DNA of 64,000 nucleotides. It comes from Janthinobacterium psychrotolerans. GTDB taxonomy: Bacteria; Pseudomonadota; Gammaproteobacteria; Burkholderiales; Burkholderiaceae_D. How positions within the stretch are numbered: the first letter of the stretch is position 1; every line of letters starts with the position of its first letter. Of the stretch, positions 40,079 to 42,161 are shown one piece after another. The notes beneath the pieces are model-generated. The model ran no database searches and was not told where the DNA came from. It was given only the letters and a program-made list of their open reading frames with translations. The position numbers were made by a program, and so were the translations under genes. The stretch is from contig NZ_LOCQ01000048.1 of assembly GCF_001677885.1 (NCBI RefSeq), forward strand, positions 62,001-126,000, given 5' to 3'.

Positions 40079-40621
40079 ATGTCAGATCACTCAGCCAACG
40101 GCCCACTGCGGCTCACAAATATCCGCTCGCAATCGCGGCTTCCAATCATGGCCATCGCAGCTTGGGCATGCCTGTTTTCCAGCGGCGCCCAAGCCGGGCT
40201 GGGCGGCACTATCCCGACTGCCCAAGGTCCGGTGGAGGACGCCAGGAGCATGCATGCGCGCTCCTTCTCCACCCTTTCCAACGCTGCGGACTCGACGGGC
40301 TCGTCTTATTCCGCCCATCAAATCATCCTGCCCGATGGCGGCATCGCCACCGAGTTCTCCGATGCGGGTGGCTTCGTATTCGCCGTGTCGTGGGCAGCTC
40401 CTACCATGCCTGACCTGGCGGCCCTGCTGGGCGTCTACAAACCATTGCTTGATCGCGCACAACAGCGCCAGCAAGCGTCGCACATTCGCTCTCCGCGCCT
40501 GCTCAATGCCGCGTCGGGGGACTGGACCATCGTATCAAGCGGACACTTGCGTGCCTATTCCGGCTATTCCTTCCTGAGCTCGCGCCTGCCCACCGGCTTT
40601 GACCTGGCCAAGCTGCGCTGA
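40079..40621 (+). CDS. DUF2844-family exported protein
   Basis: 180 residues. N-terminal signal peptide with cleavage expected after AQA at residue 39, giving a mature protein that begins GLGGTIP. Conserved features of the family: HQIILPDGGIATEFSDAGGFVFAVSW in the middle (seen here as DGGIATEFSD and FVFAVSW) and a short Tyr/Ser-rich C-terminus. Function unknown. AAAGG lies upstream of the ATG. Followed 46 bases later by the DUF3443 gene, with which it typically pairs in Burkholderiales; they are probably co-transcribed. Confidence 0.75.
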   Translation: MSDHSANGPLRLTNIRSQSRLPIMAIAAWACLFSSGAQAGLGGTIPTAQGPVEDARSMHARSFSTLSNAADSTGSSYSAHQIILPDGGIATEFSDAGGFVFAVSWAAPTMPDLAALLGVYKPLLDRAQQRQQASHIRSPRLLNAASGDWTIVSSGHLRAYSGYSFLSSRLPTGFDLAKLR

Positions 40622-40667
40622 GCACACGCCGGCGACGCTTCTCCCACTTCACATCATCAAGGATTTC

Positions 40668-42161
40668 ATGAAACCGCCCTCTTTCTCGCACCGCTTCCGC
40701 GCGTCAATTCTGCCTGCCGCACTTGCGCTGTCGACCACCCTCGCCCTGGTGGCTTGCGGAGGTGGCAGCAACTCCGATTCTCAGCCTACGCCTCCTGTCA
40801 CAGTGAGTCCACCGGTAACGCCACCTGTAGTTGTGGAGCCGCCCGTGGTCGTCGCCCCACCTGTCGCAGTGGAGCCACCAGTGGTGCTCACGCCGCCCGT
40901 GGTCACCACGCCCCCAATCCTTGTGCCAATTGAGCCGCCGATTATCGTGGCACCGCCTGTCAACCAGCCTGGAGGCTCACCGCTGAACCCGGTGGCAGCC
41001 GTCATCGGCGATGATAATGTCGCGCCGATTTACGTCGATGCCGGTCCTTTTGCCAAGAGGCCCATTCCGAACATGATTTTCGCTGACGTCAAAGTCTGTG
41101 CTCCAGACAATCCCGTCAACTGCGCCGTCATCGACCACGTCCTGGTCGATACCGGCTCGACCGGATTGCGCGTATTTGCAGACCAAATGCCCGCGCAACT
41201 GCTGGCGGCTTTGCCAGCCGCCACATCCGGCGGCGAGCCGTTGGCAGAATGCCTGAGTTTCGTATCAGGAACCACCTGGGGCAGCGTGCGCAAAGCCAAT
41301 ATCGGCATGGGCGGGGTCAGTCAGGCGGGCAAGCTGGCGGTCAACACACGCATCCAGATCATCAGCGATCCCGCGCCCCAGGTCGCTGATGTGCCTGCGA
41401 GTTGCCAGGTTCAGGGCATTATCGTCAAAACTGCAGCCGAAATGGGTGCAAAGGGTATCCTGGGTATTGGCCAGTTTGCCCAAGACTGCGGCTCCGCCTG
41501 CACCGTGTTTGCCCCTCCGGTCTATTACTCCTGCGCGCAATCGCCCTGCCGTCAGATCCCGGTTGCATTGGCCGATCAGGTCAGCAATCCCGTGATTGGC
41601 TTTGGCGCCGACAATAACGGCAACATCATCGTCTTGCCCAAGTTGCCGAACCACGCTGCCAACCGCGCCGATGGCATGCTGATCTTTGGCCTGGGCACCC
41701 GTGCCAATAACGCTTTGCCGGCCGGCAGCGCGGTGCTGGCGTCGACTGCGCTGGGCTACTTTGCCTCGGAATTCAATGGCCGGCAACTGGTCAACAGCTT
41801 CATCGACAGTGGCTCCACCATCATCTTTTCCCCATCGACAGGCACGGTCAATCTCAGCAGTTGCCAGGGCGGCATCGCCAGCTTCTTCTGCCCCGGATCG
41901 GACCTGTCAATCACTGCGACGAACACGGGCGTACGAGGAACCGCGTCAACCATCCCCCTTCTGATCGTTGATGCCCTTGCCGCTTTTAACGCGACTCCAC
42001 AGGCTCACGCAATCGAAGGCCTGGCCGGTCCCGCTACTGCTCCGAACACCCTGTTCCTTGGCGCGAGCTTCTTCTTTGGCCGCTCGGTTGGCACGCTGAT
42101 CGATGGCCGCTCCGCCATAGGGCTGAACGTGCCTGGTCCAGCCGTGACTCATACCCCCTGA
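40668..42161 (+). CDS. DUF3443-family lipoprotein with pepsin-like aspartic protease signatures
   Basis: 497 residues. Lipobox VAC (Cys30), then a Pro-Val-rich linker (residues 40-100), then the domain. The first motif is VDTGSTGLRV (Asp161), the second FIDSGSTIIF (Asp380), the spacing and flanks of the two catalytic Asp loops of bilobed pepsin-type (A1) proteases. GILGIG (263-268) and a C-terminal FLGASFFFGRSVGTLIDG (463-480) also match the pepsin fold's landmarks. At least nine cysteines could form disulfides. So it is probably an outer-membrane-anchored periplasmic aspartic protease or derived binding protein; activity is inferred. ATG at 40668 has AAGGA upstream. Confidence 0.8.
   Translation: MKPPSFSHRFRASILPAALALSTTLALVACGGGSNSDSQPTPPVTVSPPVTPPVVVEPPVVVAPPVAVEPPVVLTPPVVTTPPILVPIEPPIIVAPPVNQPGGSPLNPVAAVIGDDNVAPIYVDAGPFAKRPIPNMIFADVKVCAPDNPVNCAVIDHVLVDTGSTGLRVFADQMPAQLLAALPAATSGGEPLAECLSFVSGTTWGSVRKANIGMGGVSQAGKLAVNTRIQIISDPAPQVADVPASCQVQGIIVKTAAEMGAKGILGIGQFAQDCGSACTVFAPPVYYSCAQSPCRQIPVALADQVSNPVIGFGADNNGNIIVLPKLPNHAANRADGMLIFGLGTRANNALPAGSAVLASTALGYFASEFNGRQLVNSFIDSGSTIIFSPSTGTVNLSSCQGGIASFFCPGSDLSITATNTGVRGTASTIPLLIVDALAAFNATPQAHAIEGLAGPATAPNTLFLGASFFFGRSVGTLIDGRSAIGLNVPGPAVTHTP

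Follow-up and report, generated by a model that had tools for sequence, protein, structure and literature searches.

The stretch of Janthinobacterium psychrotolerans DNA analyzed here (64,000 nucleotides [nt] of contig NZ_LOCQ01000048.1, called the window) encodes two adjacent proteins of the Pfam families DUF2844 (PF11005) and DUF3443 (PF11925). The predicted fold of DUF3443, its invariant aspartates, its export signals, and the pairing of the two genes make it probable that DUF3443 is an exported, lipid-anchored aspartic protease of the pepsin fold that is controlled or folded in trans by DUF2844. All coordinates are positions in the window, and residue numbers are those of its 497-residue DUF3443 protein unless stated otherwise.

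Under the mechanism we propose, DUF3443 would be an exported protease with two lobes, in which D161 and D380, one from each lobe, would form the catalytic pair and a hairpin near residues 198-206 would cover the cleft above them. Lipidation at C30 would anchor the protein, and a variable spacer would hold the domain off the membrane. DUF2844 would be secreted as a small soluble protein and act in trans on DUF3443, most likely as a folding partner, inhibitor, or activator, with the x-Leu-Gly N-terminus on its flexible tether as the likely docking peptide. The original prediction, made from the letters of this DNA, had described a 497-residue lipoprotein with a DUF2844 neighbor; both frames were confirmed, and their Pfam matches lie above the family cut-offs (339.9 bits against 25 for DUF3443, 80.9 bits against 22.4 for DUF2844).

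Predicted fold and conserved active-site motifs

An AlphaFold2 (AF2) model of residues 105-497 (393 residues), built from 60 sequences, had a mean predicted local distance difference test score (pLDDT) of 94.5 and a predicted template modeling score (pTM) of 0.93. Searched with Foldseek against 350,542 PDB chains, it gave 558 matches at E<=10, 416 of them at E<=0.001. The 50 matches listed out of these 558 were all pepsin-type aspartic proteases (best E 2.5e-12, probability 1.00), at 11-15% sequence identity; rhizopuspepsin, endothiapepsin, penicillopepsin, plasmepsins, BACE1/2, cathepsin D, chymosin, and Sap5 were among the matches listed. In the model D161 closes a strand, D380 comes directly after one, and a short helix starts right behind G465. 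A predicted fold that is not bilobed beta, one of two outcomes that the original prediction had named as contrary to it, did not occur.

The other contrary outcome, family members lacking one of the two aspartates, did not occur either: no aligned member that holds the region lacks either residue. The family alignment had 110 rows, the window protein and 109 loci, with L001 (identical to the window), L114 (part of the L113 gene), and L008, L110, and L112 (weak profile matches below the family cut-off) left out. D161 is Asp in all 109 rows with a letter at that position and D380 in all 110; the glycines that follow are kept in 108/109 (G163) and 110/110 rows (G382), and G266 and G465 in 110/110 each. 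The pattern used to retrieve most relatives includes D161 itself. For this reason the 29 loci that came from profile search were also counted apart, and these gave 28/28 for D161 (one row is without the region) and 29/29 for D380. Because D161, D380, G266, and G465 are invariant in the rows that hold them, the motifs are, on sequence grounds, not a product of chance.

These motifs lie where the original prediction had read them (V160-D161-T-G-S, G263-ILGIG, F378-I-D380-S-G-S, and F463-L-G-A-S-F-F-F-G-R). Family A1 is defined by hydrophobic-hydrophobic-Asp-[ST]-Gly-[STA] in each lobe (PMC4814920), and both lobes of the window protein have it, as L-V-D161-T-G-S and F-I-D380-S-G-S. Some other rows depart from it at single positions (DAGT in L029, DSGL in L051, DTSS in L077, and Gln at position 159 in 16/110 rows). 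Two such loops per chain occur in all 109 rows that hold both regions, and the hydrophobic-hydrophobic-Gly of the N lobe is present in 110/110 rows. The 219 residues from D161 to D380 equal the spacing in L116, a bacterial PF00026 pepsin (D70 and D289). Motif order, spacing, and the fold match together suggest that D161 and D380 would meet in one active site, and we regard the pepsin fold of DUF3443 and the equivalence of its active site as very probable.

Relationship to known aspartic proteases

Several results weigh against this reading. The Foldseek template modeling (TM) scores are moderate (0.46-0.53 by query and 0.49-0.62 by target), and root-mean-square deviations are 6.3-7.9 A over about 400-440 columns, in both cases for the matches listed; on this account, lobes or loops of DUF3443 may be displaced relative to known pepsins. 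In most relatives D-W-G takes the place of the second hydrophobic-hydrophobic-Gly (D463 in 87/110 rows, W464 in 92/110). A1 pepsins carry a flap tyrosine, and none could be identified here: the window protein has Thr at residue 202, where 87/110 rows have Tyr, and residue 198 is Phe in 103. Full-length DUF3443 from the window matched no aspartic protease in Pfam at E<=10, PF00026 included, and none of two sets of 60 and 26 family members matched PF00026 at E<=1. PDB sequence searches with the protein, the domain, and two family profiles returned few matches and no pepsin at E<=10, and hhalign against three bacterial A1 proteins reached a probability of 5% with only the second DSG loop aligned. 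A proof of A1 membership from sequence alone, attempted with the PDB searches and the profile comparison, failed. A six-sequence alignment of bacterial PF00026 proteins, in which the second Asp of two groups did not line up, was left unused.

What sequence similarity there is points elsewhere in the clan. Freed of its Pro-rich low-complexity spacer, the window domain matched PE-PGRS_C (PF20729), which Pfam calls an aspartyl peptidase-like domain, over residues 151-277, the stretch from D161 to GILGIG, at E 6.8e-4 and 19.5 bits, below the cut-off of 33. The same family was matched by 4 of the 60 members at E<=1 (best 1.7e-6), and Asp_protease_2 by 7 of the 60 (best 4.2e-4, below the curated cut-off), set beside 0.015 for the best match of an unrelated family. 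A more diverse set of 26 members gave 2 matches to PE-PGRS_C (best 6.8e-4) and 4 to Asp_protease_2 (best 4.2e-4), the best unrelated match being 0.011. When ten members were rescanned, PE-PGRS_C was found only for L010 (0.0082) and Asp_protease_2 only for L077 (0.012), and the member behind the value of 1.7e-6 did not reappear. A further link comes from the weak matches: L110 matches DUF3443 and Asp_protease_2 in overlapping stretches, L112 matches DUF3443 weakly, and a profile comparison of DUF3443 with the two reached 88% over the first DTG region, which is a bridge and not a proof.

These two loci (L110:349-2391 and L112:319-2328) encode lipoprotein-like frames of 681 and 670 amino acids in which the second half is weakly DUF3443-like. 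By eye, both carry their own DTG loops, D-[ST]-G loops are visible in the first half as well, and the proteins may contain two tandem pepsin-like domains. Locus L008 (1-3240, minus strand) is filled by a 1,080-residue open frame with bacterial immunoglobulin/cadherin-like domains, PD40 propeller repeats, and a region matching Asp_protease_2 at E 8e-7. In the relatives with D-W-G, the motif adds one more conserved Asp close to the presumed active site; the window protein keeps a hydrophobic motif there (FLG at 463-465).

On this evidence we class DUF3443 as homologous to the aspartic protease clan and nearest by sequence to PE-PGRS_C, without placing it in A1 or PF20729; it would work like family A1 but seems to form a family of its own within the clan. 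The A1 assignment in the original prediction held for the predicted fold, by AF2 and Foldseek, and did not hold for placement in PF00026 or MEROPS A1 by sequence, where matches were limited to PE-PGRS_C and Asp_protease_2, both below threshold. With family A1 (pepsin, endothiapepsin, BACE1; PF00026), DUF3443 shares the predicted two-lobed fold and, in the same order, two D-[ST]-G-[ST] loops with a loop containing Gly after each. It differs in its lipid anchor, in the altered second hydrophobic-hydrophobic-Gly of most relatives, and in lacking significant sequence similarity and a recognizable prosegment. Like PecA, an exported mycobacterial surface aspartic protease with the PE-PGRS_C domain that has already been described (PMC6819658), it has DTG followed by DSG in an exported bacterial domain; unlike PecA, which belongs to the PE_PGRS family and is a substrate of type VII secretion, it has a lipobox, many Cys, and a DUF2844 partner. 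Shewasins and other bacterial A1 pepsins (PMC2761423, PMC4814920) are likewise bacterial and of the two-lobed pepsin type, and shewasins also have no prosegment (PMC4814920). In contrast to DUF3443, which carries export signals, these bacterial pepsins are reported to be without a signal peptide, and shewasin D to be mainly cytoplasmic (PMC4814920, PMC2761423). The D-[ST]-G motif is shared with retropepsin-like (A2) proteins as well, as are the Asp_protease_2 matches; a retropepsin has a single lobe and must dimerize (PMC2761423), whereas both lobes of DUF3443 lie in one chain, which carries two D-[ST]-G-type loops in place of the one per chain of the A2 type.

Two rival readings concern the fold and the proteolysis. 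In one, DUF3443 has no pepsin fold and its D-[ST]-G-[ST] loops arose by chance, as the lack of a significant PF00026 match might suggest; a confident model, pepsin-type proteases in every listed Foldseek row, and the invariant Asp leave this barely conceivable. In the other, which we consider unlikely, the fold is real and the protein cuts nothing, serving as a binding or sensor protein on a kept scaffold. Plant xylanase inhibitors (TAXi) kept the pepsin scaffold in this way. The altered second hydrophobic-hydrophobic-Gly of most DUF3443 relatives fits such a role, as does PE_PGRS16, whose solved bacterial pepsin-fold domain (structure 4EHC, as cited in PMC6819658) is reported to have shown no proteolytic activity (PMC6819658). 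Against it, both Asp are invariant and the glycines after them nearly so over deep divergence, which a binding protein would not need, and PecA, with the same DTG/DSG pair, is active (PMC6819658). Judged from sequence and model together, DUF3443 is probably a working protease that cuts peptides.

Export signals and the DUF2844 partner

The lipobox cysteine and Pro-Val spacer of the original prediction were both found in the sequence, as L27-V-A-C30 and a Pro/Val-rich stretch at residues 31-104. Among 107 relatives, a regular expression found a lipobox in 103 (picks not checked singly) and inspection by eye in 3 more, the remaining one being L014. Ten further Cys are conserved: C144, C152, C195, C246, C289, and C294 in 107-109 of 110 rows, C399 and C408 in 106, C274 in 96, and C278 in 95. 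Because of the lipobox and these ten Cys, the sequence places DUF3443 outside the cytoplasm; a lipid-anchored protein of the periplasm or the cell surface is the best reading, and the domain is probably stabilized by disulfides.

An ordinary pepsin prosegment has about 45 residues. Measured with the regular expression, the lipobox Cys and the counterpart of N117, which lies close to where the domain starts, are separated by a minimum of 13 and a median of 35 residues. This is too short in many DUF3443 members, which would scarcely accommodate an N-terminal prosegment like that of eukaryotic pepsins. In the window protein the interval amounts to 87 residues, mostly the Pro/Val-rich spacer, and some other members have longer inserts there.

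DUF2844 accompanies DUF3443 almost without exception. It was present in the retrieved stretch for 110/111 DUF3443 gene rows, that is, 109/110 distinct genes, since L113 and L114 are one gene; the lone gene without it (L109) is cut by a contig end. In L103 and L105 DUF2844 follows DUF3443 instead of preceding it. In L028 it lies 2.9 kb upstream; this locus, from a Janthinobacterium metagenome-assembled genome (L028:853-3773), has two further lipoprotein-like frames between the pair. Among 250 genomes of the order, DUF2844 was found in 22, all of which have DUF3443, and DUF3443 in 25 at E<=0.001 (24 over the cut-off). In the three DUF3443 genomes without a Pfam match to DUF2844, the partner was found by iterated profile (G375, locus L105), the gene lies at a contig end (G483, locus L109), or the DUF3443 match is itself below threshold (G414). 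Two genomes with several copies have equal numbers of both genes (two each in G249, three each in G482). Two observations run counter to strict pairing: in G510 an additional DUF2844 match, which is incomplete, lies on a contig that has no DUF3443, and a plasmid copy of DUF3443 in Burkholderia vietnamiensis (L151:4022-5098) has no DUF2844 within 4 kb; DUF2844 was present beside the two other plasmid copies examined. Distances between DUF2844 proteins correlated with those between DUF3443 proteins (r 0.893 over 105 loci; shuffles reached at most 0.187), a value to which we give no weight because any two linked genes would show it.

The AF2 model of DUF2844 (pLDDT 83.5) has a confident core of three strands, a helix, and three strands; its 40 N-terminal residues are of low confidence and would probably form a disordered tether. 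A fold search with this model found no match (best E 0.32 in the PDB and 0.06 among viral models). Just after an AxA-like site, x-Leu-Gly was found in 157 of 169 distinct DUF2844 sequences by a loose regular expression, a few of whose picks lie at unusual distances and could be chance. Of its 12 misses, 8 show the motif by eye and 4 are without an N-terminus. Since 60 of the loci come from a single genus, these sequences are not independent of one another. A docking peptide would have this appearance, with conservation at the tip of a flexible tether that is itself poorly conserved, and x-Leu-Gly is likely to be one.

Such a peptide could serve more than one purpose. It is possible, as a tentative reading, that DUF2844 acts as a trans prosegment or inhibitor of DUF3443. 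In its specific form, held just as tentatively, DUF2844 would be an inhibitor and chaperone in one, secreted from a gene of its own, and the x-Leu-Gly at its mature N-terminus would dock in the active cleft of DUF3443 or close to it. DUF2844 could also be a dedicated substrate, with DUF3443 trimming its N-terminus or tether and the processed DUF2844 acting as the effector. The tight linkage of the genes and a conserved N-terminus ahead of a probably disordered tether are compatible with a substrate, and PecA processes itself and other exported proteins (PMC6819658). Linkage alone, however, cannot tell a substrate from an inhibitor, and x-L-G already stands at the predicted signal peptidase site, so that no further cut would be needed to expose it; we hold the substrate role to be rather doubtful. 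What likelihood is left goes to an adaptor or some other role for DUF2844.

Genomic setting and significance

The DUF3443 frame begins at the ATG at 40668, 46 bases after the DUF2844 stop, a spacing that suggests a single transcription unit; a promoter and terminator scan found no promoter-like site ahead of the pair. An AraC-type regulator lies upstream and a flavin mononucleotide (FMN) oxidoreductase downstream on the opposite strand. The host genome (5.84 Mb) has one match to each family. The nearest named relative of DUF3443 is from Janthinobacterium sp. SUN073, with 66% identity in the best segment and a match over residues 1-497.

Features of the DUF2844/DUF3443 locus (positions in the window)
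Feature	Position	Strand	Basis
DUF2844 (PF11005) secreted partner, 180 amino acids	40079..40621	+	Pfam E 1e-22; AF2 pLDDT 83.5, bbb-a-bbb core (b, strand; a, helix)
DUF2844 predicted signal peptide, ...SSGAQA cut before GLGG (by eye)	40079..40195	+	Sequence; x-L-G after AxA-like site recurs
DUF2844 predicted mature N-terminus G-L-G-G, near-universal x-Leu-Gly	40196..40207	+	157/169 distinct relatives, regular expression
DUF2844 folded core, residues 78-166 of DUF2844	40310..40576	+	AF2 secondary structure
DUF3443 (PF11925) pepsin-fold lipoprotein (predicted fold), 497 amino acids	40668..42161	+	Pfam E 2.1e-101; AF2 and Foldseek
Lipobox L27-V-A-C30	40746..40757	+	Sequence; lipobox in 103/107 relatives by regular expression
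Pro/Val-rich spacer, residues 31-104	40758..40979	+	Sequence
Protease-fold domain, residues 116-487 (Pfam boundaries)	41013..42128	+	Pfam, AF2, Foldseek
First catalytic-type loop D161-T-G-S (N lobe)	41148..41159	+	Invariant D
Putative flap hairpin F198-V-S-G-T-T-W-G-S206	41259..41285	+	Model strands 190-198 and 201-214; conservation; flap role putative
N-lobe hydrophobic-hydrophobic-Gly motif G263-I-L-G-I-G	41454..41471	+	G266 in 110/110 rows
Second catalytic-type loop D380-S-G-S (C lobe)	41805..41816	+	Invariant D
C-lobe F463-L-G-A-S-F-F-F-G-R, place of second hydrophobic-hydrophobic-Gly	42054..42083	+	G465 in 110/110 rows

The original prediction had called such a protease rare in bacteria, which needs qualifying: 458 stretches of the genome collection encode a DUF3443 relative, and the exported PecA has already been described (PMC6819658). 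DUF3443 was found in 8/299 genomes of the phylum (7 over the cut-off), 25/250 of the order, 22/149 near relatives, and 57/58 genomes of one genus, in some only in pieces. This genus is probably Burkholderia, because on the B. glumae plasmid pBGF2 the pair is arranged behind cheZ just as it is in this genus. The host's own genus is patchy, 4 genomes including the host (G000) carrying DUF3443 and at least 20 not. PF00026 itself was found in 7/398 genomes of the phylum (6 over the cut-off) and not in the host. Six small, fragmented genomes of the genus taken for Burkholderia (G626, G628, G649, G667, G668, and G673) hold no more than pieces of DUF3443, and internal stops in several of them give the impression of a gene that decays in reduced genomes. 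Five plasmid records carry a relative. None was found in viral contigs or phages, and a phage origin was dropped for that reason.

In the genus taken for Burkholderia, second and third copies of the pair (L181-L228) lie directly behind cheR-cheD-cheB-cheY-cheZ on the same strand in 47/48 loci retrieved (the exception is L186), an arrangement seen for 0/12 of the first copies retrieved. Because inspection of four sequences by eye showed a terminator-looking hairpin behind cheZ in L182 and L195, and a sigma-28-type pattern had no site in the 48 intervals, we regard the linkage as stable synteny and do not take it to indicate a flagellar role. On pBGF2, a 23-kb plasmid with chemotaxis and flagellar genes, the pair lies between cheZ and, past a VOC gene, flhB (L150, 3268-8365); a cheB-like gene is near DUF3443 in L104 (G415) and L109 (G483). 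When flanking frames, unfiltered for real genes, were clustered over 80 loci, two clusters spanned most loci (presumably the pair and its opposite strand) and the others at most 22/80.

Neither DUF3443 nor DUF2844 is named in any paper of the literature searched, which left most subscription papers outside. PF11925 occurs in none of these papers, and string matches to PF11005 look, by title, like parts of Plasmodium gene names. Queries for a bacterial or Burkholderia pepsin-like aspartic peptidase or lipoprotein returned no paper, and a periplasm query returned, by title, other subjects. The bacterial pepsin types found in print are the shewasins, cytoplasmic where tested, and mycobacterial PecA. 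If the reading proposed here is correct, DUF3443 would add to them an exported, lipid-anchored pepsin type of Gram-negative bacteria, a large unnamed family would gain testable chemistry, and the finding would bear on the origin of the two-lobed fold, which is discussed in PMC2761423. Its close pairing with DUF2844, a small secreted protein of unrecognized fold, prompts one to ask what would control a pepsin-like protease that has no prosegment. Should DUF2844 prove to be a trans prosegment, the two genes together would amount to a zymogen system for a pepsin-like protease. Such a system would be widespread in Burkholderiales and would found a new family of the aspartic protease clan.

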